Made by a program: the position numbers and the translations under genes
In this document: piece by piece, positions 27,643 through 45,845 of the stretch
Numbering within the stretch: position 1 is the first letter of the stretch
How the letters are laid out: the number at the start of each line of letters is the position of its first letter
Notes under the pieces: generated by a model
Told to the model about the DNA's origin: nothing
What the model saw: only the letters and a program-made list of their open reading frames with translations
Databases searched by the model: none
Origin: a virus
DNA: 45,845 bases
Virus record (IMG/VR): IMGVR_UViG_3300008952_000091
Coordinates: 1 to 45,845 of that record
Reading direction: 5' to 3' (one strand)

Positions 27643-28374
27643 TTAGTTTCCAGTTACGGGTATCTTCATGCGGGTTTTGTTCCCCCACTTGCTTTCGAGT
27701 ATTTCCTTGCCCCATCTTCGATTCATTGCGTCCAGAGCTTTCTTATTCATTTCTTCAGTCCGCTCTATTCCACCAACCTGTTTCTTTGTTGAGCCAAGCT
27801 TGTTAATGTTGCATGAGAACTCAAAGCAATATCTGTTGTCCCGAAAGCCCATCCTGTCCTTTCTCATGCACTGAAGCCAATAGTCCTTGTCTTCGTGGTC
27901 CTTCAGTTCCTCGACGTATCTCAGGTCGCTTGATTTTCTCAAGCATACGCATCCGTACATCTGCTTCGTCAGACTGAATGGCTTGTATGGGCTGTATAGC
28001 CATGCAAGAGCTTGGGATAGTCGCGGAACAAAACCGGCTATGTGAACACCAAGGTCATCCGCCATGACGCCTACGTTCTCAAGAAGTTTCTCTACCTCGC
28101 CGGAGTACTCTTTCAAGGTCATTAGGTCGTACACTCTTTCCAAGTCGTCGTCCATCATCCACGCCCACTCCCCTTCCTCCAGTAAATCCAATATTGCGTT
28201 GGATTTTCTTGCAATGTTTCCGTCCTTTTCGTCCGGAATGGAAATCACCTTGCCCGGATACGATTTCTCATACTCAGCGCGTTGTGATTCCGGCACTACC
28301 ACCATTGCCGAGGGCACAAAGTCCAAGGTGGTGACGTTTTCCGGTCTATTGTAACTAGGAATTAGAATCTTCAT
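27643..28374 (-). CDS. GT-A-fold glycosyltransferase-like protein (copy 4)
   Basis: 243 residues starting MKILIPSYNRPENVTTLDF, with AWMMDDDLERV (DDD at 75-77) in the usual DXD place. Near the N-terminus SAMVVVPESQRAEYEK and ARKSNAILDLL correspond to the donor-binding half; a GGIER region and basic C-terminus follow. It starts 20 bases inside the ParB-like copy 3 gene, the third ParB plus glycosyltransferase pair here. The closest-looking sequence is copy 1, judging by the opening pattern. Confidence 0.65.
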   Translation of the reverse strand: MKILIPSYNRPENVTTLDFVPSAMVVVPESQRAEYEKSYPGKVISIPDEKDGNIARKSNAILDLLEEGEWAWMMDDDLERVYDLMTLKEYSGEVEKLLENVGVMADDLGVHIAGFVPRLSQALAWLYSPYKPFSLTKQMYGCVCLRKSSDLRYVEELKDHEDKDYWLQCMRKDRMGFRDNRYCFEFSCNINKLGSTKKQVGGIERTEEMNKKALDAMNRRWGKEILESKWGNKTRMKIPVTGN

Positions 28375-28993
28375 TCTTTATCTTCCTTAAATATTTTCCA
28401 CCGTCCACTACCCTGCCTATTCCCCCGCCCCAAGACCTTCCGTCCCTGCCTTTGCCGGATTCGTGCTTCACCCCAAAATGTTCCTGCGCCTCCACCCATT
28501 CCAATTCCGTCCGGAAAACAAGAACGACGTAATCGTTGTTTTCCCCGATTTCCTCAGTAAATTCCATTTCCGGCTCCGGTTCATCCGGCTCGTCAAGCAT
28601 GGAGTTAAGCTCCTTTTTATCAAATCCCAATACGTCCACGTTGAAGTCGTCTTCCATGAGGGACTCTATCTCCGCCTTCAGAACGTCTTCGTCCCAACCC
28701 GCATTCATGGCTAGCTTATTGTCGGCTAAAACGTAGGCTTTCTTTTGTTTCTCCGACAATCCCGCCAGAATTATGCACGGAACTTCAGTCATTCCGGCTT
28801 TCTTCGCCGCCATGGTGCGCCCGTGTCCTGCTATTATCCCACCGTCCTCGTCTATCAGGACGGGACTCGTAAAACCAAATTCTATTATGCTTGCCGCGAG
28901 CGAGGCTACTTGCTCCTTGGAGTGAGTCCGCGCATTGGTAGCGTATGGAATGAGCTTGTCTATACTTCTTTGGGTGTGCTCGTAGTGATTCAT
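28355..28993 (-). CDS. ParB-like protein (copy 3)
   Basis: 212 residues. The ParB core is textbook: LIPYATNARTHS, GGIIAGHGRTMAAKKAGMTEV, then LADNKLAMNAGWDE. The C-terminal part includes DYVVLVFRTELEWVEAQEHFG, which is found in phage ParB proteins and recalls the C-terminal region of ParB-like copy 1. It is coupled to the glycosyltransferase gene downstream and overlaps the 28990 gene by 4 bases. Confidence 0.88.
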   Translation of the reverse strand: MNHYEHTQRSIDKLIPYATNARTHSKEQVASLAASIIEFGFTSPVLIDEDGGIIAGHGRTMAAKKAGMTEVPCIILAGLSEKQKKAYVLADNKLAMNAGWDEDVLKAEIESLMEDDFNVDVLGFDKKELNSMLDEPDEPEPEMEFTEEIGENNDYVVLVFRTELEWVEAQEHFGVKHESGKGRDGRSWGGGIGRVVDGGKYLRKIKNEDSNS

Positions 28994-34289: not shown

Positions 34290-35463
34290 GTTAGGGAAAA
34301 CGCAGTGTTTATGCAATCTCAAAGGCATTTTGCAAGGTCGTTGTGAATAACTTTTTTCACTTTTTTTTCCCTCCTTAAATGTCTATCCGTCAAGTACTTA
34401 GGGAAATCGCAAAAGCACAAAGTCAAGTTTTTTTCCGCATTTTAGTCATGAAGTCGTTTTTTGGACTTTCGGCAATTTCTCCGTTTTTTTTATTCTGTAA
34501 AGACTTGAAAAACAAGCACTTCGACCAATTAATTTTAGAAAATTTTGAGACGCAAAAAAACGCAAAAAGGCAACTTTCCTTTGTTTACTTAGGCTAGCGA
34601 AGGATTGGAAAAGTCGCAAAATCGCATATTTTGGTGGACTTGGTTTAAATATGTAGAAAAAAAGCGTGACTTATTCTCTTTTTTTTCTGTACGAAAAGTT
34701 TGCAATTTTCGCTTTTTGAGATTGAATCTCATCGTTTTTGAGACTCCGTATCAATAGGGAAATTTCGCAGAAACAAGGCATGCTTTTTTTAAAAATTAAC
34801 TATAGGCAATTTTTCATATCGCTAATTTTCGTCAAGACTTTTTTGACAAGCGGTTTCGTGGATTTGAAAAATATTATGCATACAATAAATTTTTTTTATT
34901 GCACCAACAGTTTTTTTGGTCAAAATGCTATTTCAGCCAGAGTTTCACCTATTTTGCACCGCCCCGTTCTTGTTTCCCGACCACCACGCCGAAGGACATT
35001 TGGCACCGCCACGCCTAGGGAGTTGTGGACCAGTACAATCAGGCCGTCCTCAGTGTGCTTTCCTGTGCCTAGGGATACACCCAAAAACTGGTCTTGTAAG
35101 TTATTGGTTATCAACCTTTTGCATTTTGTCTTTTTTTGCAAAAAATCTCATTTTAGAAATTTCCGGCATAGCTCCAGTCGCCGTTGCTGTTTTGCTTGGC
35201 CGTACCGATGCCTCAGTGCTGTCCTGATGGGTTCACAGCCTGTTTGCCACCTTGACCACGGCCCGCTTGCCACCTTGACCACGCCGTCCTACCTGACCTC
35301 TTACCTTCCGTCCTGAACTTATTGCTGTTCCACCACGCCTGAGCTAATCTCTCACCGCCCTAGGGAGGACCTAATTGGCTCGCGCCCTCGCCACCACCGC
35401 CTTCCCTAAAGTTGCGTTTTGGTTCGAGTTCCTTCCGAAACCTTTGACCGAGCACAAAAAAAT
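34290..35463. other. Long non-coding region
   Basis: About 1.2 kb without a convincing gene. The first ~630 bases are AT-rich with many T runs and a perfect TGTGAATAA (34342-34350), which matches the DnaA-box consensus. The rest is C-rich and G-poor on the plus strand, with copies of an ACCGCC...CCTAGG motif (35001-35022, 35341-35369). A 13-codon frame with a strong AAGGAGGG lies near 34370-34330 on the minus strand. Open frames of 70-190 residues occur on the plus strand but look like chance. Confidence 0.6.
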
Positions 35464-35516
35464 GGGAGCCGCCTGTGCTTTGCAGTCCTACACTGCGCGG
35501 CACTCTGGCGGCTCCC
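35464..35516 (-). terminator. Long terminator hairpin
   Basis: GGGAGCCGCC (35464-35473) pairs with GGCGGCTCCC (35507-35516); inner GTGC/GCAC and TGCAG/CTGC helices extend it. The minus strand continues with ATTTTTTTG. It ends the 35542 gene. Confidence 0.8.
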
Positions 35517-35541
35517 CGATGAACAACAACCGTAGTCTAAA

Positions 35542-35739
35542 TTACGTTACGTGGCGTAACTCAAATCCTTGCTTGGTTTCTTCGATGAACTTGCGCTCTC
35601 CGATTTTGACCGCCATTCTCATAGCAATCTTGACTGCAGTTGTTCTTCCCTCCACCTCTGTTACGTTCTGGGTCTCAGTATCTGTGATGTTCCAGAAGTG
35701 TCTGAAGTTTGGGTTTCGTTTAATTCTGATTGTAGGCAT
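35542..35739 (-). CDS. Small basic hypothetical protein
   Basis: 65 residues, MPTIRIKRNPNFRHFWNITD..., with a C-terminal basic part. AAGGAG precedes the start. Follows the 35761 gene by 21 bases and is followed by a strong terminator. No family recognised. Confidence 0.7.
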   Translation of the reverse strand: MPTIRIKRNPNFRHFWNITDTETQNVTEVEGRTTAVKIAMRMAVKIGERKFIEETKQGFELRHVT

Positions 35740-35760
35740 TATTGTTGTTCTCCTTGATTG

Positions 35761-35946
35761 TTATAACATTTTGTTCAGTTCCTCAGATGCTTTTAGCAAC
35801 TTTTCAAATTTTTCTCGCTCGCTTTTCCATGCTTTGCCGGTGGTTGCAAGTGCGTTTGCTTCTGCGTTTTTTGCAGTACGTGTGCGAAGTGCGCGCGCGT
35901 GACGTTCAAGTTCGGCGGGCGTTAGTTTACTTTTCTTATTTAACAT
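35761..35946 (-). CDS. Small charged helical protein, probably leaderless mRNA
   Basis: 61 residues, MLNKKSKLTPAELERHARAL..., mostly helical. The ATG is 6 bases downstream of a TAAGTT -10 box, so the transcript probably starts at or next to it. It leads a two-gene operon. No family recognised. Confidence 0.7.
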   Translation of the reverse strand: MLNKKSKLTPAELERHARALRTRTAKNAEANALATTGKAWKSEREKFEKLLKASEELNKML

Positions 35947-35952
35947 ACTAAC

Positions 35953-35981
35953 AACTTACTCCGGTTCTATCTATTTGTCAA
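35953..35981 (-). promoter_or_regulatory. Promoter of the right-end family (first copy)
   Basis: TTGACA (35976-35981), 17 bases, TAAGTT (35953-35958), then 6 bases to ATG. The spacer contains AACCGGAG before the -10, as in the other copies. Confidence 0.7.
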
Positions 35982-36215
35982 GCTATCTGGGAAATTTTTT
36001 TTATCTTTTTTGCTTGTCGTGAAACAGTGCCACGCTCCTTTACAAGCTATGATTGACATTCCCATCACTAGGGCTGGCTCCGTTGCCACGCCTATCGACC
36101 TTAACCTTACCATGACCTCGCCAAACCTGTCGGCGTCTTGGGATGGCATTCCTACCTCCAGACCTAGCTTGGTCATTTGTCTGGAGAACTCTGCTACCTC
36201 ACCTTGCGACGGCAT
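35967..36215 (-). CDS. Hypothetical protein
   Basis: 82 residues, MPSQGEVAEFSRQMTKLGLE..., with helices and a central VATEPALVMGMSIIACKG hydrophobic stretch. GAGGAAC lies about 11 bases before the start. Its 3' end overlaps the downstream promoter. Could be chance, but the amino-acid composition looks natural. Confidence 0.5.
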   Translation of the reverse strand: MPSQGEVAEFSRQMTKLGLEVGMPSQDADRFGEVMVRLRSIGVATEPALVMGMSIIACKGAWHCFTTSKKDKKNFPDSLTNR

Positions 36216-36275
36216 AACTTTTTGTTCCTCTCTTTTTTCCTGTCGGTGAACACTATGGTCCTCGGCGCTCTGACT

Positions 36276-36512
36276 TTACTTCTTATTTTCATTTTTCAAT
36301 TCTACCGCGGTTGCTATTTCTTCTGCAAGCTCTTCCACGGACTGCTTGGCGACGTGCTGACGATACTTCCTGCGGTCGTCTGGCGTGCTGGCTCGTTCCG
36401 TGACCTTGAGCGGGTGGATTCGGATTACCTCAAGACTCGGATGCTTTAGCTCTCCGCCGTCCCTCGGGTTCATGTCGTAGTCCACACTGTATGGGTCTTC
36501 TGAATTTGGCAT
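36276..36512 (-). CDS. Hypothetical protein
   Basis: 78 residues, MPNSEDPYSVDYDMNPRDGG..., with a charged C-terminal helix ending in lysines (NENKK). A GAGGAAAC ribosome site precedes the start. Follows the 36530 gene by 17 bases. Confidence 0.7.
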   Translation of the reverse strand: MPNSEDPYSVDYDMNPRDGGELKHPSLEVIRIHPLKVTERASTPDDRRKYRQHVAKQSVEELAEEIATAVELKNENKK

Positions 36513-36529
36513 TTTAGTTTCCTCGGTTG

Positions 36530-36721
36530 TTATCGTGTTCTCTCGAAAAACTTATCCCAGCGCTTGGCGTCTTCTATTTCTTGCCTCGATAGTCGGCGAG
36601 TACGTCCTGACTTGGTGATGAATTTTCCGTCTAGATTTTTAATCGCCTCGCGAAGGTAAACTCCGTCTGAAACGTTTCTGGCTATTTGACTCCTGCGTGC
36701 GCAGGCTGCTGCTCTAGGCAT
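36530..36721 (-). CDS. Small very basic protein
   Basis: 63 residues, MPRAAACARRSQIARNVSDG..., rich in Arg and Lys, with an AAGGA ribosome site. A 17-codon frame starting 5 bases after the promoter -10 (36766) ends by overlapping this start and could be a leader. Possibly nucleic-acid-binding. Confidence 0.65.
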   Translation of the reverse strand: MPRAAACARRSQIARNVSDGVYLREAIKNLDGKFITKSGRTRRLSRQEIEDAKRWDKFFERTR

Positions 36722-36771
36722 TGTTTTTCCTTAATTTGATGGTTATTGTCTTGCTCATTTTGAACATATAA

Positions 36772-36800
36772 CAAGATACACCGGTTTCCCTAGAGAGTCA
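36772..36800 (-). promoter_or_regulatory. Promoter of the right-end family
   Basis: TTGACT (36795-36800), 17 bases and TATCTT (36772-36777), then GTTAT and ATG. The spacer contains CTAGGGAAACCGGTG, close to the copies at 37678 and 39585. Confidence 0.75.
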
Positions 36801-37098
36801 AATGATTTACCACAGTTTTTTCACTTTATTTTCAGTCCAAGACCTCCTCCTGAGCCTACCACGGCGTCAACTACCTCGACCTGACCGCATGTCGCGAATA
36901 CCACGACCACGACATATCTGCCAGACCTACTACCTGCAAACCTCCTGAGCCTTGCCACGACCTTGCCACCGTCCACGACCACGCCAACCTTCCGTCCTTC
37001 CAACCTCGCCCTTCAGGTCTACCTTCCTTGCCCGTGTGCATCTCTTACCGCCTCACCTATGGGCTTATTGTACCGCCTCGTGTGTGATACCGCCTCAC
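36801..37098. repeat. G-poor intergenic stretch with CCTAGG-type repeats
   Basis: No supported gene. The plus strand is strongly C-rich and G-poor (CCACGACC and CCTACC runs). It holds motif copies with ACCGCCTCACCTA(T/G)G at 37038-37063 and 37086-37106, the latter overlapping the stop codon of the 37099 gene. The repeated unit also occurs near 35012, 35355, 37880, 40055 and 42833. Confidence 0.6.
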
Positions 37099-37284
37099 CT
37101 AGGAGCAAAATCGCATCACTTTGTCTGCTTCTGCTGCGACTTCTTCCATCTGGCGCTCCCAGTCCAACACCTGCTCTTCGTCATCGTTCTTTCTGGCTGC
37201 GTCCCTGTACATCGTCATTTCCTCGTGGTCGCAGACCAGTCGGTCGAGTTTCTGTGCGGGCGTTTCTGATTCTAGGTCGTACAT
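37099..37284 (-). CDS. Small acidic coiled-coil-like protein
   Basis: 61 residues, MYDLESETPAQKLDRLVCDH..., helical and charged. It starts 1 base after the stop of the 37286 gene and shares its promoter. The stop TAG lies inside a CCTAGG repeat. No family recognised. Confidence 0.7.
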   Translation of the reverse strand: MYDLESETPAQKLDRLVCDHEEMTMYRDAARKNDDEEQVLDWERQMEEVAAEADKVMRFCS

Positions 37285-37285
37285 A

Positions 37286-37672
37286 TTATTTTATTGGTTC
37301 GATTAGGTAAGTTCCGGAATTGTTAAAAGCTATTGCGTAATTTTCGCGATGCGGAACAAAAGCGTATAGTGGACTGTAAATCACCCACGATTGCTCTGGT
37401 GTGCTCTCTATTTTTGTGTTTCCGGTGTGGTCAATCGGACAAGATAGAACGTTTTCGGGTTCATCTAGATATTCCTCGGCGCATTCTAAAGCTCTCTCGT
37501 TTAACGTGCGCGTAACTCTTAACTTGCGCGTGGGTGAAGATTCTTCGAGCATACAATGCAGGTCGATAAAATCGTTTATTTGCGCGCTAGTGGCAGTTGC
37601 GGCAGGCGCAAACTGTTCTAGGTCGTCAATCGTTTCTATTGTCTGAAGTTGGCTAGTGTGTGTTTTTAACAT
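37286..37672 (-). CDS. Hypothetical protein, probably leaderless mRNA
   Basis: 128 residues, MLKTHTSQLQTIETIDDLEQ..., no family recognised. A charged, helical first half is followed by a beta-rich part (SWVIYSPLYAFVPHRE, YLIEPIK). Its ATG lies 5 bases after a TATCTT -10, so the mRNA is probably leaderless. Confidence 0.7.
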   Translation of the reverse strand: MLKTHTSQLQTIETIDDLEQFAPAATATSAQINDFIDLHCMLEESSPTRKLRVTRTLNERALECAEEYLDEPENVLSCPIDHTGNTKIESTPEQSWVIYSPLYAFVPHRENYAIAFNNSGTYLIEPIK

Positions 37673-37677
37673 AGAAC

Positions 37678-37706
37678 AAGATACACCGGTTTTTCTCTAT
37701 ACGCAA
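37678..37706 (-). promoter_or_regulatory. Promoter of the right-end family
   Basis: TTGCGT (37701-37706), 17 bases and TATCTT (37678-37683), then GTTCT and ATG. The spacer contains AGAAAAACCGGTG. Confidence 0.7.
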
Positions 37707-37931
37707 GCGATTTGCCGTAGTTTTTTCAATTTATTTGGCATTCCAGCAGTGTTTTCTTCCACTCAGGCCTGACCGCTGCCGGTTTGCCTTGCCTGCGACG
37801 CTTGACCATTCCACGCCACCGTCCACGCCTCTCCTCCACCACCGCCTGCACCTTTGCGTATATGACACCGCCTCACCTAGGGTCTAATCTCGTACCGCCA
37901 CGCAGGGGACACCGCCCGTCCAAAGAGAAAA
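37707..37931. repeat. C-rich intergenic stretch with CCTAGG-type repeats
   Basis: No supported gene. C-rich, G-poor plus strand with a compound copy of the repeat (37862-37912): ACCGCCTCACCTAGGG, then TCTAATCTCGTACCGCC and a third ACCGCC. It lies between the terminator of the 37989 gene and the 37678 promoter. Confidence 0.6.
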
Positions 37932-37964
37932 AGGCTCACCGGCTCTGCACGAACCGGTGAGCCT
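37932..37964 (-). terminator. Rho-independent terminator
   Basis: A perfect 11-bp stem AGGCTCACCGG / CCGGTGAGCCT with an 11-base loop, followed on the minus strand by TTTTTCTCTTT. It ends the 37989 gene. Confidence 0.85.
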
Positions 37965-37988
37965 GACAACACACACGTCAAATTTACA

Positions 37989-38675
37989 TTAAAACAGCCA
38001 TTTTTGCCCGTTTTGCTCGGATATTGTTCCGGTTGTGTCTATATCTAGGTCAGAATCTGGCATTAAAGGGTTATTAGAGCCTACAGGAGGGCGGGCGTCT
38101 TCTTGCAGGTACTTGGGTGCACGGTGAAAATTCTCAGCCCAATCACGCCTCTCTGCTTCTTGCGGCAACTCTTCGTGATTCTCTAGGTGTGAACCTTCGG
38201 TGAAAAAGTCGAGTACGGTCTTACCGTTAGCCTTGCCCCTCCTAGTGTGTACATCTAGCGCGCAATCAGGTATTTTTAAGGCGTTTGGACTGCTTGGGTC
38301 GCATTCCATACGGCTTTTATGCTGGTTGACTACGCACATTTTCGTCCAATCTATAAGCCGGGACTTCTTTGCTCGGCTTAGGTAGATGACCGCTTGAAAG
38401 ATTGCTAGGCGCTCGTGTGGGTCTTTTGCGGAGTGGAGGCGCTGGTACATATCATGGTATTGCATGACCCTGCCCACAGCATCCGGGTCGGCCAAACCGA
38501 CGTCCTCGGACGATATAATCAGGGTGCGCTTCCAGAAATACTTCGCAAATCCGCTAATATAGAGTTCGTAAGCAAAATGCAGAGCATCCTCCTCCATCCC
38601 TCGCCTTATGCACTTCTGATAGGCGGAGCTTACTTCAAAAAAGTCTAGCCCGCTCTTGGTTCGTAGGTCGCTCAT
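37989..38675 (-). CDS. Stand-alone MgsA/RarA C-terminal-like protein
   Basis: 228 residues. Residues ~18-70 match the C-terminal part of RarA/MgsA: KCIRRGMEEDALHFAYELYI, a short gap, then WKRTLIISSEDVGLADPDAVG. In RarA this part follows the AAA+ ATPase and helps tetramerise and bind the replication fork; here no ATPase is attached. An acidic C-terminal half follows. An AAGAGGAGC ribosome site precedes the start. It may act on host RarA or be a fork-binding module. Confidence 0.6.
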   Translation of the reverse strand: MSDLRTKSGLDFFEVSSAYQKCIRRGMEEDALHFAYELYISGFAKYFWKRTLIISSEDVGLADPDAVGRVMQYHDMYQRLHSAKDPHERLAIFQAVIYLSRAKKSRLIDWTKMCVVNQHKSRMECDPSSPNALKIPDCALDVHTRRGKANGKTVLDFFTEGSHLENHEELPQEAERRDWAENFHRAPKYLQEDARPPVGSNNPLMPDSDLDIDTTGTISEQNGQKWLF

Positions 38676-38677
38676 GG

Positions 38678-39016
38678 TTAGCTCCTCTTGTGGTCGCCGT
38701 CATCAGCGCGCTTGTTAAATTCGTCAATGGGGTCGAGTCCACCGCTAGCGTAGTCTTGGTGACCCGCCACTCCTTTTAGGGTTTCGTACTGTGTTCTCAG
38801 CTCTTCCACGGTGCGATTTGCTTCAGCAAGTAGCATCTGGAGTTCCACCTCGTTGGTTTTGCGAGGATTGACGAGTTTGTCCGTCACCTTTTCTAGAACT
38901 CTGCGCCACGATGATACAATCGCTCCTACGCTGGTGGTCTCGCCGTCTTCATTGAATAACTCGCGCCACTCTTCTGACTTCTGAGACATCTCATTTTTAA
39001 GTGTTCCTATGTTCAT
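38678..39016 (-). CDS. Hypothetical helical protein
   Basis: 112 residues from the ATG at 39016, chosen because GAGGAAC lies at the right distance; an in-frame start 33 bases upstream lies within the 39018 gene. Acidic and helical, with a Glu/Arg-rich segment (LLAEANRTVEELRTQYETLK). No family recognised. Confidence 0.7.
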   Translation of the reverse strand: MNIGTLKNEMSQKSEEWRELFNEDGETTSVGAIVSSWRRVLEKVTDKLVNPRKTNEVELQMLLAEANRTVEELRTQYETLKGVAGHQDYASGGLDPIDEFNKRADDGDHKRS

Positions 39017-39017
39017 T

Positions 39018-39293
39018 TTATTGTTCCTCATCGTAATTAAGTCTTTCACCGGCTATCCACGGCCAAAACTTGAGGGTTTCTGACTTATTTTTGATAAACT
39101 CATCTTCAACCCAGTCAACCTTGACCTTTCGGGTTGTTTTCTCGGCAAGTTGGTTGTCCTCACTGAGTATGAAGTTGGTAGCAATGTTCAGATTATCTCG
39201 GAGAGTTCCCGGATACATTAGCTCGCCCGTGCTTGGGATTTGCCAAAATCCAATGAATGGATTGCCGTAGAATTTTTGATTACTCGACGTCAT
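39018..39293 (-). CDS. Hypothetical protein
   Basis: 91 residues, MTSSNQKFYGNPFIGFWQIP..., aromatic-rich start and an acidic end. It overlaps the WYL_2-like gene by 14 bases. No family recognised. Confidence 0.7.
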   Translation of the reverse strand: MTSSNQKFYGNPFIGFWQIPSTGELMYPGTLRDNLNIATNFILSEDNQLAEKTTRKVKVDWVEDEFIKNKSETLKFWPWIAGERLNYDEEQ

Positions 39294-39579
39294 ATCGTAC
39301 TCCCTCCGAGGTTAGTTCAAATACTGTCTTTAGGTTAATCATGCGGTGACCATCGGCTTGAATATCGAAGGCGCCTACGAGGTCGTAATCGGAAGGTGTG
39401 AAACTTCGACCGACTCCCTTGACGTACTTTCCGACGTGGAGGCGGCAAGTCATCTTGCGAACCTCTCCGTTTTTCTTAACGAACTTCACGGAGAATATTC
39501 TACCTCCAGAGTTCAGAATCATATCCGCTGCTGTGTCTTGCGTGATTACGTTTGGATTGTGTGTGGTGTTTATTGTCAT
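39280..39579 (-). CDS. WYL_2/Sm-like SH3-type protein, leaderless
   Basis: 99 residues. IFSVKFVKKNGEVRKMTCRL (residues 28-47), then GKYVKGVGRSF and HRMINLKTVFELTSEGVRYDV match the small phage protein family with an Sm-like SH3 barrel called WYL_2. Its role is unknown; such barrels bind RNA or ssDNA. The ATG follows the -10 of its promoter by 5 bases, so no ribosome site is expected. Confidence 0.7.
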   Translation of the reverse strand: MTINTTHNPNVITQDTAADMILNSGGRIFSVKFVKKNGEVRKMTCRLHVGKYVKGVGRSFTPSDYDLVGAFDIQADGHRMINLKTVFELTSEGVRYDVE

Positions 39580-39584
39580 GTTAT

Positions 39585-39613
39585 AAGGTACTGCCGTTTG
39601 CCTTAGAAGTCAA
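39585..39613 (-). promoter_or_regulatory. Promoter of the right-end family
   Basis: TTGACT (39608-39613), 17 bases and TACCTT (39585-39590), then ATAAC and ATG. The spacer contains AAGGCAAACGGCAG, the best copy of the shared spacer element. Confidence 0.8.
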
Positions 39614-39740
39614 GCGATTGGCGAAGTTTTTTTGCTTTTATTTTCTCTACCGCATATATACTGGCGAACATTAGCGTCCACGGTGTTAGAATCATTAGCA
39701 TTTCTAGTATGTCCTGTATTGTTTTTGCTGGATTGTTCAT
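39603..39740 (-). CDS. 45-residue membrane protein
   Basis: MNNPAKTIQDILEMLMILTP..., one membrane span around residues 12-30, then a basic tail (KIKAKKLRQSLDF). The ATG overlaps the stop of the upstream gene (TAATG), and its stop lies in the promoter spacer of the next operon. Confidence 0.6.
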   Translation of the reverse strand: MNNPAKTIQDILEMLMILTPWTLMFASIYAVEKIKAKKLRQSLDF

Positions 39741-40015
39741 TACTTGTTCCTGATGTATAGTTTGACTTTCTTTCCCATGGGGGATTTCATGTTGTGTTCG
39801 TACCTAAATACTTGCGCGAACTTGGTATCATTGAACCATAGTATCACTTTCTTAGGTAGGTCGTCCCACCAAGGGCTAAACGGTACTTCTCCGAGTTTGT
39901 TCACCGAAGTCGTATAGGTGGGTTTTCTGTTATCCTCGCTCATATCTTCGTTGAACCGCCACGCATCATGTAGAATTGTGTCGTCCGAGATTGGCTTTTT
40001 AATTGTTTTAGTCAT
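39740..40015 (-). CDS. Hypothetical protein
   Basis: 91 residues, MTKTIKKPISDDTILHDAWR..., aromatic-rich (FSPWWDDLPKKVILWFND). A CAGGAGAC ribosome site lies upstream, and a copy of the CCTAGG repeat (40045-40064) lies just before that. No family recognised. Confidence 0.65.
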   Translation of the reverse strand: MTKTIKKPISDDTILHDAWRFNEDMSEDNRKPTYTTSVNKLGEVPFSPWWDDLPKKVILWFNDTKFAQVFRYEHNMKSPMGKKVKLYIRNK

Positions 40016-40044
40016 TGTAATTGTCTCCTGTGTATTGTGCTTAT

Positions 40045-40064
40045 CTTATACCGCCCAACCTAGG
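40045..40064. repeat. Isolated CCTAGG-type repeat copy
   Basis: On the minus strand CCTAGGTTGGGCGGTATAAG. The GGCGGT part is followed by TATAAG, which could also serve as a -10 box with an upstream TTGAAA (20 bases). Confidence 0.5.
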
Positions 40065-40072
40065 TTTTTATT

Positions 40073-40225
40073 TCAACCTACCATTGAATGCGGTGCGACT
40101 TTCCATAATACCCATCCGCCGAATCTTAGGCTAAATGCAAAGGCGAGCATGATTGCTACCCTGCGGTAATATGGAACGTGATAATTGTATATCTTTTTGC
40201 TTAGGAATCGTTTTTGTAAGTTCAT
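40073..40225 (-). CDS. 50-residue membrane protein, leaderless
   Basis: MNLQKRFLSKKIYNYHVPYY... with a hydrophobic stretch at about residues 23-41 (VAIMLAFAFSLRFGGWVLW). The ATG lies 5 bases after the TACCTT -10 of its promoter. Supported by promoter position and length. Confidence 0.65.
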   Translation of the reverse strand: MNLQKRFLSKKIYNYHVPYYRRVAIMLAFAFSLRFGGWVLWKVAPHSMVG

Positions 40226-40230
40226 ACTAT

Positions 40231-40259
40231 AAGGTACTCCAGTTTACCTGCAATGTCAA
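40231..40259 (-). promoter_or_regulatory. Promoter of the right-end family
   Basis: TTGACA (40254-40259), 17 bases and TACCTT (40231-40236), then ATAGT and ATG. The TGA stop codon of the upstream gene (40256-40258) lies inside TTGACA. Confidence 0.8.
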
Positions 40260-40555
40260 GTGATTGTGTGGTTTTTTATTCTTTGTAAGTTGTCTACCCG
40301 CTCTTTTAGTGCGACGTAGAGGGCGGTATCGACTCCCGAAGGTTGCGTGGGATTGGAGATTCGTCTTCCAAACGTCAGCCAGCCCCGCTCTTCTAGGCGG
40401 TACAGAGTCTGTGCGGTTAATAGCTCCCAGTATACGCAGGTTTTCGCTATGCTCTCCACTGAGTAGAATAACTGTCTATTGAACGATAGTATGGGCAGTA
40501 CCGCCAGCGCTTGTATAGAGAACTCGTCTTTTCTTTTCATCCATTGGTATCCCAT
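40256..40555 (-). CDS. Hypothetical protein, possible winged helix
   Basis: 99 residues. SIAKTCVYWELLTAQTLYRL followed by EERGWLTFGRR could be a winged-helix unit, but this is weak. The start is preceded by AAGGAA within the stop region of the amidotransferase extension (TAA then GGAA), suggesting coupling. Confidence 0.5.
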   Translation of the reverse strand: MGYQWMKRKDEFSIQALAVLPILSFNRQLFYSVESIAKTCVYWELLTAQTLYRLEERGWLTFGRRISNPTQPSGVDTALYVALKERVDNLQRIKNHTIT

Positions 40556-40559
40556 TTCC

Positions 40560-41081
40560 TTATCCTTTCATTCTGATTGCTTGTTCTATTTCTTCGATGT
40601 TCTGCTGAACCGCCACGGGGTCGATGAGTGGGTCGATTTCTTCAAACCCTTCTCTTAACTGTCCTCCGACGTATATGTCGCTCACGAGTGGGCAGAAGAC
40701 ACCATGCTTATCTTCGATTGGGTCGTACATGGTGTCTACCGCCATAGTTTCGCTAGGGGTTGGTGTGGAAATTCTGTCCGTATCTACGTCTCCCGTATCT
40801 GGACATGAACTCGTTTGACCTACCTCTCGCGCTAGTTCCAGTTGGAGAGATGCTCGTTCGGATTTCGGTACCCACCGCTCCACTCTTGGGCGCGTTGGTA
40901 CTTTTTTTTTACCCTTAGCCTTTTTCTTGTTCGGCTTGCCGACAATGTCGTTGGCGGTTGCCGCGGACTTATTGCGAGCTTCCTTGCAGTAGGAAGTGCT
41001 CGCGCCATAGTAGGCGGTCGTGTACCTAACTTGCAAGTGAAGGTGACTGTCATTGGAGTACCATACTCCATTTTCCCAGTT
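40560..41081 (-). pseudogene. In-frame extension of the amidotransferase beyond a TGA
   Basis: This frame has no ATG start and is exactly continuous with the amidotransferase frame across the TGA at 41082-41084. It encodes NWENGVWYSNDSHLHLQ... and then a long charged region. In phage class II amidotransferases of this type I recall an NE-x-x-G-W-x-x-GVWYSN-like block at this point; the sequence here reads NESA, TGA, NWENGVWYSN. So the TGA probably sits where a codon such as GGA would be expected. Either the gene is broken, or the TGA is read through to make a 338-residue protein. It is listed as pseudogene because the second case is unproven. A TTG at 41036 is a poor alternative start. Confidence 0.6.
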
Positions 41082-41576
41082 TCAGGCAGACTCATTGATA
41101 ATGACCGCCTTGCCTTTCTTATTGAGAAATACAAGTTTCGAGCCGGAACCGATGAGCTTTTCGAGAACTAGCTTGCCGTATTCGCTATAAATGATGCGAG
41201 GGTTACCTCGATTCATTGGTCCCACGTAGTGCTTTACAAAAGCATTCGTGTCGGACGTTAGCGCGTCAACTCCCTCAATCCCGCTGATAATTCCGTTGTG
41301 AATCATGGCGAGGTCTGGAGCGACCTTGAATGGGTGGCAGTTGTCCTTATCGACAAGACCATGAGTTGCCCACCGAAAGTGAATAAGCATTGGCTTATCC
41401 ATGTGCGGTACTAGAGCTTCCCAGAATGGCTTGAAGGTCATAAAACCTTTCTCAATGACAACCTTGCCTTTTTCGACGTAGGCGAAACCTGCTCCATCGT
41501 CATTGTTGTCGAAAGCAGTCTGCATATGGAACTCGTCCACTTTCTGGTTTTCTGGTTTCAAAATTGCTAAACACAT
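41082..41576 (-). CDS. Class II glutamine amidotransferase-like protein (to the TGA)
   Basis: 164 residues starting MCLAI, so Cys2 is the nucleophile after Met removal, as in Ntn-type glutaminases. HFRWATHGLVDKDN and MIHNGIISG are the Arg-TH-G and NG glutamine-binding blocks. It would release ammonia from glutamine for the amidoligase encoded directly upstream. AAGGAA precedes the ATG. The TGA cuts the frame inside a conserved region (see the entry for 40560-41081), so the product may be truncated or extended. Confidence 0.8.
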   Translation of the reverse strand: MCLAILKPENQKVDEFHMQTAFDNNDDGAGFAYVEKGKVVIEKGFMTFKPFWEALVPHMDKPMLIHFRWATHGLVDKDNCHPFKVAPDLAMIHNGIISGIEGVDALTSDTNAFVKHYVGPMNRGNPRIIYSEYGKLVLEKLIGSGSKLVFLNKKGKAVIINESA

Positions 41577-41638
41577 TTTTATTCTTTTCCTTTCGTTATT
41601 TTTGTAGTGGTGTTGGTCGTTATTTCTTTCACTTAAAC

Positions 41639-41667
41639 AATATACATCCGTTTGCCTGTAATGTCAA
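41639..41667 (-). promoter_or_regulatory. Promoter of the right-end family, before the amidotransferase
   Basis: TTGACA (41662-41667), 17 bases and TATATT (41639-41644). The spacer contains CAGGCAAACGGATG. A GTG follows the -10 by 6 bases and opens a 17-codon frame; the amidotransferase ATG is at 41576. Confidence 0.75.
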
Positions 41668-41687
41668 ATGATTTGGCAAGTTTTTTT

Positions 41688-42605
41688 CTATACTCGCGAA
41701 TCATATTGCAGTGCCATGCGTTCGGCAGTTCTGCGCATTCCTCGGAAGTTGTCGCGAAAGACCGGCAGGAAGTAATTTCTACCTAGGTGGTGATGAAACC
41801 ATTTTAGACTTTCAGCGCCACATCCCGGTGCTTTCTGCGTGAACGGAAGTTCCTTGAGTGAAACATTACGTTTTGCGTTGTGTATAATTGAATACACAGT
41901 CCAGAGCGCGTGGAGAATCTTCTGCTTGTTGAGAGTTCCCGCGAATGCACGGAACTCGACAGTTCCCTTGCCGTTCATGTTCTGAAGGTTGACGGCATGG
42001 TATCGCTCCAGATGACTCAGAGAGTTTCCGTGGCGACACTTTTCAGAATCTGGCTTTTGGTGTTCCGAGCGCACATTCATTACCCAGTGTGACTCATCTT
42101 GGATGCGTCCGCAGTAGGTGTTTCTGTCTCTGCGAGTTCCGGACTGTGCGTAAAGCGCGTCCTGCCATCGGTAGGTCAAGTGAGCTACTTTCGTTAGAAA
42201 GTTCACGACCTTGGCGGCAGATGCTCCCCGTCCTAAAACGGAATCTATTCCGCAGTGGATGTGCATACCGCACGAGGCGTTGACTCGCGTTGGCAAGTCT
42301 CTAAGCCAATCAGTAAACGCAAGCACGTGTTGAACCCCGTCTTGCCCTACTAGAATCGGAGATACGAACTCACACGCATATCGCTCATAATTGCGAGTAT
42401 CCACGGATGAATCGTTCTCTACTGTCCACCTGTTGCAGCCAAATCTAGGTGCATCATATACCGGTTCTCCGGCATGATAGTCACCTATGTCGATATTATC
42501 GGCGTAGTCTCGCGGAATTAGGCATTCTAATTCTACTCCTATCGTCCAATCTTCGCCTTTGGACTGCTGTCCTTCAAACATATTTAATTGTGTGTCTATA
42601 TCCAT
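41688..42605 (-). CDS. Amidoligase family protein
   Basis: 305 residues with the putative amidoligase pattern: GVELE (residues 23-27), WTVENDSSVD (60-69), ACEFVSPI (78-84), SCGMHIH (111-117), GTVEFRAF (214-221). The fold is glutamine-synthetase-like. These enzymes join an amine or ammonia to a carboxylate. The amidotransferase is the next gene downstream, matching the known phage pairing of a class II glutaminase with an amidoligase. The target is unknown; cell-wall peptides or phage proteins are suggestions from earlier work on this family. Confidence 0.8.
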   Translation of the reverse strand: MDIDTQLNMFEGQQSKGEDWTIGVELECLIPRDYADNIDIGDYHAGEPVYDAPRFGCNRWTVENDSSVDTRNYERYACEFVSPILVGQDGVQHVLAFTDWLRDLPTRVNASCGMHIHCGIDSVLGRGASAAKVVNFLTKVAHLTYRWQDALYAQSGTRRDRNTYCGRIQDESHWVMNVRSEHQKPDSEKCRHGNSLSHLERYHAVNLQNMNGKGTVEFRAFAGTLNKQKILHALWTVYSIIHNAKRNVSLKELPFTQKAPGCGAESLKWFHHHLGRNYFLPVFRDNFRGMRRTAERMALQYDSRV

Positions 42606-42645
42606 TTTATTTGTGATTTTAATTGTGATTTTTGAAACATATTAC

Positions 42646-42674
42646 AAGGTACTGCGGTTTGCCTCTGAAGTCAA
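42646..42674 (-). promoter_or_regulatory. Promoter of the right-end family, before the amidoligase
   Basis: TTGACT (42669-42674), 17 bases and TACCTT (42646-42651). The spacer contains GAGGCAAACCGCAG. An ATG follows by 5 bases and opens a 14-codon frame that ends overlapping the amidoligase start (42605). Confidence 0.8.
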
Positions 42675-42847
42675 GTGGAACGGGAAGTTTTTTTTCACTT
42701 TATTTTAGTTCCATGCTTCCTACCTACCTATTCCACCTCCTCCCGTCCGACCACGACCACGACCGCCCTACCACCCTAGCCACACGCCTATGGTGAAAAT
42801 ACACCCACCCTACGGTTTCTCATCTCTCACCGCCCGACCTAGAAGCC
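42675..42847. repeat. C-rich intergenic region with a CCTAGG-type repeat copy
   Basis: C-rich, G-poor plus strand (CCACGACC runs) with one copy of the repeat at 42820-42846, TCTCTCACCGCCCGACCTAG, directly after the stop of the 42848 gene. No gene seen. Confidence 0.6.
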
Positions 42848-43609
42848 TCACATGCTATTTACTTCTCTTTGGAGTTCGCGAAGTATAGCGTTAGCACGGG
42901 TATGCCTGCGAGGTCGCTCCGGAGTTTCTTCAGGTGGTGTCAGGCATGATAATTGCCTGCCTCGGACATACTGGCGTGCTGGGTAGGCGTCTGAAGATTC
43001 TTCAAGAACTCGGCACAGTTTGCGCGAACCTCTACGTCCTGTATATGAAGCCTGCAAGTCATTCATTACCTCTTCTAGGTTGGCAAGTCGGCGGGTGTTT
43101 CTATGTCTGAAATCGTTGCAGTCATAAATAATACGCTCTTTTGCTCCCTCAATGTCATCTATGTCATGAAGCGACAACTTGAAGGTAAATTCGTTTTTCC
43201 ATTTATACGTCCACGCTTCGGTTTCTTTTTCGATTGCGCAATCACCCGAAAACGCACTGACGCTTAATAGGCAGGACTCATTCATGTCGTGTACCACGCA
43301 TTGCAAAGCGTCTGTCACGGCATCCTCCATATGGAATACTGCTGCGCGCTTCCATGCTATGAGGGATGAGAACCAGTCCTGATTGGCTATGGGGACTCTC
43401 TTCTCTCCCGACATTCCTACTTTCAGAAAGCGTTCAATGTTATCCGGTGCGTCGTGCGTGCCGCAATAACTATTGGCTTCCGAACGAGTGGCAGGACGAG
43501 CAAACTCAATACGGTGGGCGCCATGCCTTAGGTAAACGTTATCTGGTCCCGTTTGTATTTCATAGGCGTCTTTCAACTGTGATTCTAATTCTGTTATTTG
43601 ATAGTTCAT
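42848..43609 (-). CDS. Hypothetical protein, probably leaderless mRNA
   Basis: 253 residues, MNYQITELESQLKDAYEIQT..., with a central part containing AIEKETEAWTYKWKNEF and a basic C-terminal third (ETPERPRRHTRANAILRELQ). No family recognised. The ATG is 6 bases after the TAAGTT -10 of its promoter. Confidence 0.7.
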   Translation of the reverse strand: MNYQITELESQLKDAYEIQTGPDNVYLRHGAHRIEFARPATRSEANSYCGTHDAPDNIERFLKVGMSGEKRVPIANQDWFSSLIAWKRAAVFHMEDAVTDALQCVVHDMNESCLLSVSAFSGDCAIEKETEAWTYKWKNEFTFKLSLHDIDDIEGAKERIIYDCNDFRHRNTRRLANLEEVMNDLQASYTGRRGSRKLCRVLEESSDAYPARQYVRGRQLSCLTPPEETPERPRRHTRANAILRELQREVNSM

Positions 43610-43615
43610 AGTTTT

Positions 43616-43644
43616 AACTTACTTTATATATGCTCATATGTCAA
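43616..43644 (-). promoter_or_regulatory. Promoter of the right-end family
   Basis: TTGACA (43639-43644), 17 bases and TAAGTT (43616-43621), then AAAACT and ATG. The shared spacer element is not clear in this copy. Confidence 0.65.
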
Positions 43645-43652
43645 GTAAATAT

Positions 43653-43988
43653 CTAGGAAAATGTATGGCAGTCATCGGACGACCAGCACCCCGGCTCTCT
43701 ATATGCTCGGAACTCCCAGCCGTAGTCCGGCTTGCTTCCCGTCTTGTGCATCACGGCGACGTACTCATTATCTCCGTCAGTTTCATACTCGTCCCAACTT
43801 TCTATCATTCCGTACTCACTCATATAGTCGAACAGAACACTGCCAAAGCAGTCGTTCCACTCGTCGTTTATGTTGTGGACCTCGCCGTCGATAAATCGAG
43901 TCCTGATGGATTCGCCGGCGGTGCTGGTCTTAAACTGGAACAGTAGCCATTTACCCTTCTTCCTAGAAGTACCTTGTTTCACATTCAT
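43653..43988 (-). CDS. Hypothetical acidic protein
   Basis: 111 residues, MNVKQGTSRKKGKWLLFQFK..., with a basic start and acidic middle (FDYMSEYGMIESWDEYETDG). It overlaps the 43963 gene by 26 bases. No family recognised. Confidence 0.65.
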   Translation of the reverse strand: MNVKQGTSRKKGKWLLFQFKTSTAGESIRTRFIDGEVHNINDEWNDCFGSVLFDYMSEYGMIESWDEYETDGDNEYVAVMHKTGSKPDYGWEFRAYREPGCWSSDDCHTFS

Positions 43989-44166
43989 GTCGTTCTCTTT
44001 CTATGCTAGCTTGCAGTGCGTTGATTTTATATTTTTGGGCGCCTATGATGATTAGCAGCTGCTCCACGTCGGTGGCTAGCAGTGTCTCGGCTTTATTGTC
44101 TGGGTGGTGGTTGAAGTCCCACATCTCTGTGAATTTCTTCAGCCAGCGCTTGTGATGCTTACTCAT
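43963..44166 (-). CDS. Small charged protein
   Basis: 67 residues, MSKHHKRWLKKFTEMWDFNH..., helical, with a strong AAGGAGG ribosome site. No family recognised. Confidence 0.7.
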   Translation of the reverse strand: MSKHHKRWLKKFTEMWDFNHHPDNKAETLLATDVEQLLIIIGAQKYKINALQASIERERHECETRYF

Positions 44167-44178
44167 AATTTTTCCTCC

Positions 44179-44838
44179 TTATAGATATAGAATTTTTCCG
44201 AATAGGGCGAACTGTAGCATCATGTCGCAATGCACGGTCCTGTATGTCGGTGCTTGGCCACAGCTTTGGGTAGAGAACTTATTAAATAGCGCTGGGAAGT
44301 TTCGCTTTGCTCGCTTAAATCCCAAACTTATATCCCATAGCGTCAGAGTCCAAGTTCCCCACAGTTGCTCGTTCCTATAACGCTCTCGATTACTTCCGTT
44401 CTGCCACGGGCGATTAAGCGCTTTTGCTAGGAAGTTGTCGGATGCGGCGCGGTACATATAGTGCATAGGCATACCATCCCCATCAATATCATCCTGTAGT
44501 GTATCTTCGGTCAGGAATGCGAAGTCGTGGATATGTCTGCGTGGCGCACGCTCTGGGTTGCGCCAACGGGCGTTTATTCGCGGAGTGTTTGACCACTGGT
44601 GCGAACTATAAATTATTGCGTACAGCATTGCCTCGATAGTCCTATCGTCATGCGGTCCTATGATTGGGGTTAATGGGCAATCATACGGAGGAACGTGTCT
44701 ATCATTGGTGGCGTACTCGCTAGCCATGGTCTTGTACAGTTCGTTTTTCTCGATGTTACCTCCGCGCACTTCTGCAATTACGGGCGGAGGTGCGGGAGGG
44801 AGAAGGGTGTCGGCGTACCTATCGCTTATCGGACACAT
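44179..44838 (-). CDS. Hypothetical protein
   Basis: 219 residues, MCPISDRYADTLLPPAPPPV..., with a long charged middle and a basic, Trp-containing part (WTLTLWDISLGFKRAKRNFP). No family recognised. The start overlaps the upstream stop (TAATG), with GGAGGAA upstream. Confidence 0.7.
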   Translation of the reverse strand: MCPISDRYADTLLPPAPPPVIAEVRGGNIEKNELYKTMASEYATNDRHVPPYDCPLTPIIGPHDDRTIEAMLYAIIYSSHQWSNTPRINARWRNPERAPRRHIHDFAFLTEDTLQDDIDGDGMPMHYMYRAASDNFLAKALNRPWQNGSNRERYRNEQLWGTWTLTLWDISLGFKRAKRNFPALFNKFSTQSCGQAPTYRTVHCDMMLQFALFGKILYL

Positions 44839-45203
44839 TATGATTCCTCCTTGTTAGGGTCGCCATACTTCGGCAACAGGGGAGTGAACTCCCACTGAAA
44901 TCCCGGTGACTTAGCTCCCGGAATCGCGTATCCGAACTGCCTAGCCTCTTCGGGACCAGCGAATGGTCCGTAGGTTACTCCGCCCTCGGTTACGCTATAC
45001 TTGCATCGGGACTCGCGTTCAATTGCGTTCTCCACTTGCTTGGTGACGTCCCCGCAAGCGGCACAGTCCAATAGAACTTTATGTGCCTCGCGCAACGCAT
45101 CAAGGGTTGGAGTCTTAATTACGGGGAACAAATCTTCCGCCGTGGCGATATTCAGATTCCCGAGTGCTTCTTCTAGTAAGTTATCTTCATTGATGATATT
45201 CAT
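44838..45203 (-). CDS. Hypothetical protein
   Basis: 121 residues from the ATG at 45203, chosen by GAGGAAAC at the right distance; a longer reading from 45266 would overlap another gene. Acidic first half, then a GGVTYGPFAGPEEARQFGYA segment that might be a small binding domain. No family recognised. Confidence 0.7.
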   Translation of the reverse strand: MNIINEDNLLEEALGNLNIATAEDLFPVIKTPTLDALREAHKVLLDCAACGDVTKQVENAIERESRCKYSVTEGGVTYGPFAGPEEARQFGYAIPGAKSPGFQWEFTPLLPKYGDPNKEES

Positions 45204-45225
45204 AATTTTAGTTTCCTCAGTGGGT

Positions 45226-45369
45226 TTATACACAGGCATACATAGTGATTTGCCATCCGTCCCCATAGGCTAGTCGATATTCTCTCAGGAGGTATCGCGC
45301 CTCGGTCTCGGTGCTGGTGGAATCAAGTACTTCTGTCCGTCCGTTATATCTTCCAAGTATTTTATACAT
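45226..45369 (-). CDS. 47-residue conserved-looking protein
   Basis: MYKILGRYNGRTEVLDSTST... followed by EARYLLREYRLAYGDGWQIT. The EA-YLL-EYR-AYG-W pattern looks like small phage proteins of this size. It is preceded by a short gap after the 45388 gene. Confidence 0.6.
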   Translation of the reverse strand: MYKILGRYNGRTEVLDSTSTETEARYLLREYRLAYGDGWQITMYACV

Positions 45370-45387
45370 TATTTTCTTTCGTCTGAT

Positions 45388-45573
45388 TTATTTCGTGTCG
45401 CAACTACCTTCTTTGTCCACGCAGTCTTTGCATATAGTAACGCGCCGGTCGATGGGCGTTAATGGCTTGCCGCAGTTGTCGCACATACTGTTCACCAGTC
45501 CGGAGATTATCTTCAGCACTACATACGCGGCATACCCGACAATTAGATAGAATATGATATTTACTATTTCCAT
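45388..45573 (-). CDS. Membrane-anchored zinc-ribbon protein
   Basis: 61 residues: one membrane span (IIFYLIVGYAAYVVLKIISG) then CDNCGKPLTPIDRRVTICKDC, a four-cysteine zinc ribbon (CxxC...CxxC). It is the first gene after a TATATT promoter, with a 33-base leader. Confidence 0.75.
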   Translation of the reverse strand: MEIVNIIFYLIVGYAAYVVLKIISGLVNSMCDNCGKPLTPIDRRVTICKDCVDKEGSCDTK

Positions 45574-45606
45574 TTTTGTTTGTGGGTTAATTTTTATTAC
45601 TAATGC

Positions 45607-45635
45607 AATATAGTCCGGGTTAAGGCATATGTCAA
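45607..45635 (-). promoter_or_regulatory. Promoter of the right-end family
   Basis: TTGACA (45630-45635), 17 bases and TATATT (45607-45612). The spacer contains TTAACCCGGAC. Unlike most copies it has an untranslated leader. Confidence 0.7.
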
Positions 45636-45639
45636 GCGA

Positions 45640-45758
45640 TGCGGGCGATTTTTTTATATTATTTTCTCCCCCTCCCCTTACGCGCGTTCGCGCGCGCGAG
45701 GCGATTGCGTACTATTTAGTACTTAATCCTTACTCGTGCGTAATACTTCCGGGGCGAC
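45640..45758. other. Gene-poor edge region with GC hairpin
   Basis: CGCGCGTTCGCGCGCGCG (45681-45698) can fold into a strong hairpin, next to a C-rich run, and GTACTATTTAGTAC is a palindrome. A similar CCTCGCGCGCGCGAA element lies at 18006-18022 upstream of another promoter. Confidence 0.5.
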
Positions 45759-45761
45759 AAC

Positions 45762-45821
45762 TCAGGCCGCAGCGCAGCTGCAACGCTGCAAATACTCGGC
45801 TTTTCCACGGCAGTACCGCAT
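45762..45821 (-). CDS. Possible 19-residue peptide at right edge
   Basis: A short frame, MRYCRGKAEYLQRCSCAAA, with a very good AAAGGAG ribosome site 5 bases upstream. It is Cys-rich. May be a leader or chance. Confidence 0.3.
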   Translation of the reverse strand: MRYCRGKAEYLQRCSCAAA

Positions 45822-45845
45822 GTTTACTCCTTTACCCTGCGGATG

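Follow-up and report, generated by a model that had tools for sequence, protein, structure and literature searches.

The 45,845-base viral record IMGVR_UViG_3300008952_000091 from IMG/VR (hereafter the window, meaning the whole stretch of DNA that was analysed) contains on its minus strand, between positions 35,953 and 45,635, nine sites of the form TTGAC (one TTGCG)-N17-TAnnTT, eight of which are followed after 5 or 6 bases by a start codon. These sites probably constitute a family of strong promoters that are read by the host and give rise to leaderless mRNAs or to mRNAs with a 5′-terminal AUG. The family is real and unusual, and it is built from known principles, namely promoter clusters like those of T4, leaderless starts adjacent to a -10 box and leader frames with a 5′-AUG. 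A comparison of 25,000 of the 45,845 bases with named phages yielded no near match to the window DNA.

A promoter family with adjoining start codons

All nine minus-strand copies expected from the original prediction, each with a spacer of exactly 17 bases, are present. The coordinates given there were right for eight of them, while the second copy is located at 36,773-36,801 and not at 36,772-36,800. The first hexamer, corresponding to a -35 box, reads TTGACA in five copies, TTGACT in three and TTGCGT in one, and the second, corresponding to a -10 box, TACCTT in three copies and TATCTT, TATATT and TAAGTT in two each. Across the whole record, the pattern TTGAC-N18-TANNTT occurs ten times on the minus strand and never on the plus strand. 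In 100 dinucleotide shuffles, the minus strand contained 0.19 such sites on average and three at most (plus-strand mean 0.38), so that the enrichment over shuffled sequence on which the original prediction had depended is clearly present. These ten sites comprise eight of the nine copies, the site TTGACG-N17-TATATT at 17,882-17,910, which precedes a 417-codon gene in leadered form (ATG at +26; G001 counterpart at 9942, see below), and a site outside the cluster at 6,490-6,518 with an ATG 9 nucleotides (nt) after the -10 box. Only the 17-base spacing stands out, as each of the alternative spacings of 12-16 and 18-23 bases yielded no more than one minus-strand site. A generic sigma-70 scan of positions 34,900-45,845 revealed no excess (10 found, 13.4 in shuffles) and listed only three of the nine copies because their second hexamer is TAnnTT and not TATAAT.

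The similarity of the copies extends beyond the two boxes. Conservation extends from an A-rich tract located approximately 15-20 bases before the -35 box, via AATCaC next to this box, to a AGGCAAACcGgaG-like spacer. Between 5 and 25 nt upstream of the -35 box, the fraction of A is 0.52. Leave-one-out profiles covering -30 to the -10 box placed eight of the nine copies within the top 8 of 91,574 positions, whereas the copy at 43,616 ranked 430th, with a spacer and an upstream block that do not match. Eight copies thus form one family, and the copy at 43,616 has only the -35 box, the -10 box and the start codon in common with them. The same division applies to the AAACCGG-like spacer block that had been described for most copies, which was found, in a loose form, in eight copies and is missing from 43,616. 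Taken by itself, the upstream block still ranked five of the nine copies in the top 8 of 91,632 positions, and the spacer block alone also ranked five in the top 8. The copies at 36,773 and 37,678 are 80% identical across 74 nt.

As originally claimed, seven copies have an ATG 5 or 6 bases after the -10 box. An eighth copy, at 41,639, carries at +6 a GTG that had been missed before, whereas the copy at 45,607 contains no start codon at +5 or +6 and has its ATG at +33. On the same strand, only 8 of 156 other TAnnTT sites are followed by a start codon at these positions, compared to eight of the nine copies (binomial p ~4e-10, with the reservation that the copies are not independent). With a gap of 5-6 nt in these eight copies, the -10 box leaves no room for a ribosome binding site before the start codon. 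The start codons are sited for leaderless mRNAs or for short leader frames, as had been proposed, with five copies belonging to the first type and three to the second.

The five copies of the first type open reading frames (ORFs) directly and in frame with the ATG. Copy 1 (TTGACA-N17-TAAGTT, 35,953-35,981, with an A-rich upstream block reaching to approximately 36,011) precedes a 61-codon ORF at 35,761-35,946 that is predicted to be leaderless (ATG 6 nt after the -10 box, in-frame codon score 0.24), and copy 3 (TTGCGT-N17-TATCTT, 37,678-37,706) a 128-codon ORF at 37,286-37,672 (5 nt). Copy 4 (TTGACT-N17-TACCTT, 39,585-39,613) is followed after 5 nt by a 99-codon gene at 39,280-39,579 with a weak, below cut-off match to WYL_2, and copy 5 (TTGACA-N17-TACCTT, 40,231-40,259), also after 5 nt, by a 50-codon ORF at 40,073-40,225, the homologue of which in G001 has no promoter at this place. 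The promoter-like copy 8 (TTGACA-N17-TAAGTT, 43,616-43,644) lies 6 nt before a 253-codon ORF at 42,848-43,609. For the ORFs of 61, 128, 99 and 253 codons, the in-frame codon score was the highest of all six frames; it was uninformative for the 50-codon ORF (weak, 0.06) and for the leader frames.

In the three copies of the second type, the frame ends at or beside the start of a further gene. The 17-codon leader ORF of copy 2 (TTGACT-N17-TATCTT, 36,773-36,801; ORF at 36,714-36,767, ATG 5 nt after the -10 box) overlaps with its stop the ATG of a 63-codon gene at 36,530-36,721, whose start is kept in the relatives G001 and G005. Likewise, the stop of the 14-codon leader ORF of copy 7 (TTGACT-N17-TACCTT, 42,646-42,674; ORF at 42,596-42,640, ATG after 5 nt) overlaps the ATG of an Amidoligase_2 gene at 41,688-42,605, the start of which (MDID) is conserved in both relatives. 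The 17-codon leader ORF of copy 6 (TTGACA-N17-TATATT, 41,639-41,667; ORF at 41,579-41,632, GTG after 6 nt) stops 2 nt short of the ATG of a class-II glutamine amidotransferase-like (GATase) gene at 41,082-41,576, which was assigned by a weak Pfam match below the cut-off and whose start is kept in the relatives as well. Copy 9 (TTGACA-N17-TATATT, 45,607-45,635) is the leadered exception and precedes a 61-codon gene at 45,388-45,573, the G001 homologue of which also has a leadered promoter. Seven of the eight predicted 5′ ends fold no better than shuffled sequences, the exception being the one at 36,773.

Leadered counterparts in relatives and a parallel in a nearly unrelated phage

Two further IMG/VR records allow a comparison of corresponding positions. 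G001 (IMGVR_UViG_3300021958_000041, 85 kb, G+C 0.37) is syntenic with the window across many genes, and G005 (IMGVR_UViG_3300048034_000948) has the gene block of the promoter cluster in common with it. The window copies at 45,607, 42,646, 41,639, 39,585 and 36,773 correspond, in front of the same genes, to G001 positions 74,362, 76,769, 77,834, 79,578 and 81,520. A sixth G001 promoter, at 82,725, directly precedes the homologue of a 65-codon gene which in the window (at 35,739) comes after the 61-codon gene behind the copy at 35,953. Together with three clear promoters in G005, from which the ambiguous -10 box of the 99-codon gene was left out, these form a set of nine counterparts. By eye, a start codon at +5 or +6 is missing from all nine, and their genes start 34-56 nt downstream, behind A-rich leaders. 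The core of -35 and -10 box is kept although the spacer sequence differs, and four counterparts (G001 81,520 and all three in G005) have spacers of 16 bases. The TT in the -10 boxes of the relatives was ascertained by the search pattern and is hence no evidence. The likely transcription start in the relatives, again judged by eye, is the seventh base after the -10 box, which is an A in eight of the nine.

For the amidoligase, GATase and 63-codon genes, the old starts are kept, and the start codon adjacent to the -10 box is found in the window only. The 99-codon gene differs from these, since its first approximately 10 codons in the window align with the untranslated leader of both relatives and the old ATG is gone. 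No other ATG, GTG or TTG start compatible with the relatives exists for this gene, the only one that was tested to this standard.

A pattern scan identified a third record, G006 (IMGVR_UViG_3300030329_006476, 104 kb, G+C 0.43), which is nearly unrelated to the window, with two weak protein matches. Between 22.1 and 30.3 kb it contains ten sites of the type TTGAC/TTGCA-N17-TAnnTT-N5/6-ATG, all of which open frames, with lengths of 35-241 codons (an eleventh pattern match, at 89,699 with an 8-codon frame, was excluded). The DNA upstream of these sites is A-rich, most of their spacers contain AAAC or AAAG, and A occupies both -20 and -19 at nine of the ten sites, compared to seven of the nine window copies. 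One of the ten was chosen by its spacer pattern, whereas the other nine were found with a pattern fixing TTG, spacing, TAnnTT and start codon. As these features were therefore ascertained by the pattern, only the letters of the spacer and the copy number count as evidence. Between the leaderless genes of G006, at 22-27 kb (L233), several G+C-rich, inverted-repeat-like intergenic copies ending in GTCGTAAGTCGTTG were also observed.

Searches of viral contigs with the spacer motif TTGACN6GGNAAACNGNNGTA yielded at least 119 sites, and among the sites listed only five had a TAnnTT box. A stricter spacer pattern gave seven loci, one of them in G006; the other six were viewed at the locus only, three of them being also pattern-counted. 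Of the 119 listed sites (L009-L127), 71 appear to belong to another phage family. In this family, which as a guess stems from cyanophages, AAATA comes after TTGACA-N17-TATTAT/TATGAT-like boxes, and the spacer contains a GGGAAACCGTAG block. In phage G008 (L230 at 4246, 5595 and 8527), the ATG of three promoters lies 4-5 nt behind TATATT, and a hairpin-like repeat and a AACCTGAGGA sequence come next, which is perhaps another 5′-AUG arrangement.

Probable reading of the promoters by polymerase and ribosome

The original prediction had considered that a phage factor might read the promoters. Such a factor, or regulation by a repressor of the phage with the AAACCGG-like spacer block or the A-rich block upstream as its binding site, could account for the fact that both blocks are conserved beyond the needs of the -35 and -10 boxes and that, by eye, the copies are more alike within each phage than between phages. 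Several observations make this explanation an unlikely one. The core persists in G001 and G005 with differing spacers, and the nearly unrelated G006 has the same core, spacing and start placement with a similar spacer block in the same place, so that the feature is not private to one phage. Neither a sigma factor nor an RNA polymerase was found among the 43 window proteins scanned (10 against PHROGs, alone or additionally, and the rest against Pfam). Moreover, the boxes are complete (TTGAC and TAnnTT), unlike those of T4 middle promoters (PMC2988021). The host RNA polymerase is the simpler reader, and the likeness between window and G006 is better explained by common host biochemistry than by a factor that only one phage possesses.

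The nine sites would accordingly serve as strong promoters for the main RNA polymerase of the host, and copying would have distributed them over a block of small, non-structural and probably early phage genes. Early expression is plausible from the gene content, since the block is non-structural, lies on a single strand and is distant from the head genes. In eight copies, the start codon would coincide with the expected transcription start, with the polymerase beginning at or beside it. Five copies would then produce leaderless mRNAs whose 5′-terminal AUG is recognised by ribosomes. From the other three, an mRNA with a 5′-AUG or 5′-GUG would arise. Its frame of 14-17 codons terminates at or next to the start of the following, older gene, and a ribosome loaded at the 5′ end could reach that start by coupling or reinitiation. 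Published work is in line with this. In Deinococcus, a -10 box beside an ORF yields leaderless mRNAs (PMC12340547), and in Escherichia coli 5′-terminal AUGs bind 70S ribosomes, with some of them raising or lowering the expression of the downstream gene (PMC4965119).

Alternatively, the ATG beside the -10 box might be a promoter initiator (TATG) and no start codon, with translation beginning at later starts. In line with this, three copies have a conserved gene start 35-56 nt downstream of the ATG or GTG, and the relatives show TATA where the window has TATG. This explanation nevertheless appears improbable, somewhat more so than a phage factor, as in five copies the ATG directly opens a frame of 50-253 codons, the 99-codon gene lacks another start compatible with the relatives, one copy has GTG, and all ten G006 sites open frames. 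That a single gene cassette was duplicated recently, so that the copies are alike by descent and not by function, is very improbable despite the likeness of pairs such as 36,773/37,678, since the proteins encoded behind the copies were not seen to resemble each other (not compared systematically), the promoters at the matching positions of G001 and G005 have another spacer, which implies that the similarity within a genome was renewed at old sites, and the exact 17 bases and the conservation of the start codon point to selection even if copying may spread the sites.

Sequences resembling the Shine-Dalgarno (SD) motif precede 19 of 56 window genes, compared to 4 of 56 at a control position. There was almost no signal in G001 (8/56, control 6/56; three stretches) and little in G006 (12/115, control 8/115; five stretches). 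Of the best 80 among 546 cellular relatives of the GATase gene, 75 are titled Bacteroidota, at low identity, in a scan biased to abundant families and with no phage relative of known host, which suggests that the host is perhaps a relative of the Bacteroidota. The portal, primase-helicase and helicase proteins gave low-identity matches to many phages of unrelated hosts. The host search with the G001 capsid returned four records and that with the 1,083-codon protein of G001 none, and the matches of the G006 protease and terminase offered no usable host.

In the eight genomes behind the loci, the layout matched 20 times compared to 12 in the control. One G+C-rich genome of a panel of 296 Bacteroidota genomes, G031, contains 13 TTGAC-N17-TAnnTT-N5/6-ATG sites compared to none in the control, 12 of them on the reverse strand of their contigs and several before plausible ORFs of 90-427 codons (L271, L273, L279, L280, L282, L283, L286). 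Its positional profile (6 x 20 kb) is not independent, as the stretches were picked for the pattern. In 100 genomes of the class of G031, 225 matches were counted compared to 152 in the control (212 compared to 152 when G031 was omitted). The lineage of the host may be related to G031, and nothing ties this genome to the window phage.

Several points weigh against a host-read family with leaderless or 5′-AUG transcripts. The copy at 45,607 has no leaderless start, and that at 43,616 is devoid of the family spacer and upstream block. The three leader ORFs are without conserved sequence, are not found in the relatives and do not reach the length that a coding test requires. A gap of 5 bases places the A of the ATG at the sixth base after the -10 box, whereas the relatives imply the seventh, and transcription beginning at the G of the ATG would mean that the start codon is lost. 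In Deinococcus, aberrant expression is reported when the -10 box lies too near to the start codon (PMC12340547). As window genes often have SD-like sequences, leaderless starts are not the sole mode of initiation. Finally, the layout is not enriched in Bacteroidota, with 396 matches compared to 506 for a reversed-pattern control in the panel of 296 genomes. Despite these points, the host-read family appears the likely explanation.

Neighbouring elements and comparison with known systems

Next to the promoters, a second repeated non-coding element, CCTAGG-n2..5-GGCGGT, was observed in intergenic regions of the window, G001 and G005, often beside stop codons and with non-coding, G-rich DNA after the element. 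Its window copies lie on the minus strand at 37,037-37,103, 37,857-37,881, 40,040-40,064, approximately 42,817-42,841 and 35,340-35,365, with further copies at L135:12150, L135:14558, L136:4570 and L146:4375. A search of the window against Rfam returned no match, for this element or otherwise. A terminator-like hairpin of 14 pairs with a T run lies between promoter blocks at 37,932-37,964 on the minus strand, from a generic terminator scan that was overall no better than shuffles. The Amidoligase_2 gene and the following GATase-like gene (41,082-42,605, minus strand) are kept as a pair in G001 and G005 and possibly make a small amide-linked product. Elsewhere, three TET-associated glycosyltransferase (TAGT) genes (minus strand, 6,515-7,270, 24,401-25,261 and 27,643-28,374) and genes with a ParB_N domain (7,446-8,228, 25,251-26,003 and 28,355-28,993) suggest hypermodified phage DNA.

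A similar organisation is seen in the early promoters of T4, which are read by the host polymerase and also comprise many near-optimal host-type copies per phage with A/T-rich upstream elements and a consensus beyond the -35 and -10 boxes (PMC2988021). The window shares with them the -35 box (TTGAC in eight of nine copies) and the A-rich upstream element. T4 early promoters differ in matching the sigma-70 boxes and in carrying TGn (extended -10), whereas the window family has a TAnnTT -10 box with an adjoining start codon, and TG at -15/-14 in none of the nine copies. In T4 middle promoters, a phage box replaces the -35 box (PMC2988021), whereas the window copies keep both host-like boxes, neither of which is replaced or overlapped by a box of phage origin.

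Leaderless genes of Deinococcus-Thermus and Actinobacteria likewise have a TAnnnT-like box a few bases before the start codon and no intervening ribosome binding site (PMC12340547; PMC3160421), the gap being approximately 6-8 in Streptomyces examples (PMC3160421, by eye). These are, however, cellular genes, often without a -35 box, whereas the family in the window belongs to a phage, is uniform and combines a complete -35 box with a spacer of 17 bases and a start codon 5-6 bases after the -10 box. Similar to the leader frames of the window, some 5′-terminal upstream AUGs of E. coli open short frames (5-26 codons) before the main gene, in part overlapping its start (PMC4965119), but they belong to scattered host genes and not to a repeated phage promoter element.

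The Bacteroidota sigma-ABfr promoter (-33 TTTG / -7 TAnnTTTG) serves mRNAs that are mostly leadered (PMC6847099; PMC7366714). It shares with the window copies the T at -8 and -7 and a similar distance from TTG to TA, and A-rich leaders without SD sequences are also seen in the relative G001. In contrast to it, the window copies have G (6/9) or A (3/9) at -6 and no G at -5, and TTTG occurs in none of the nine, whereas TAnnTT occurs in all of them. The start-associated sequences (SAS) of cluster K mycobacteriophages are also repeats within one phage genome, located 3-7 bp before the start codons of non-structural genes (PMC3203893). They are 13-bp sequences with AGGAG that are thought to act in translation, whereas the repeat of the window would be a promoter, and in the eight copies with a start codon the -10 box fills the place of the SAS, so that none fits.

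Searches of the open-access literature revealed no family of phage promoters that contain their own start codons. Most leaderless phage mRNAs are, to our knowledge, single cases. This also applies to lambda cI, a leaderless phage mRNA of one gene (named in PMC4965119). As far as the open-access literature shows, the combination of such a family with leadered counterparts and an independent parallel is new. Tentatively, and with more doubt than confidence, it might be proposed that phages of an SD-poor bacterial lineage have at least twice independently made a set of early promoters into promoter-plus-start-codon cassettes. The set in the window would then have switched as a whole from the leadered state once its lineage had separated from G001 and G005. 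The old leaders would have become N-terminal codons or coupled short frames, and during takeover 70S ribosomes could be loaded onto phage mRNA that has no ribosome binding site. In phages of this kind, gene prediction programs may place start codons wrongly. With promoter and start codon as one element and the leadered state kept in the relatives, these phages provide a natural before-and-after series, which can be used to test why leaderless translation evolves and whether phages take over translation by it.

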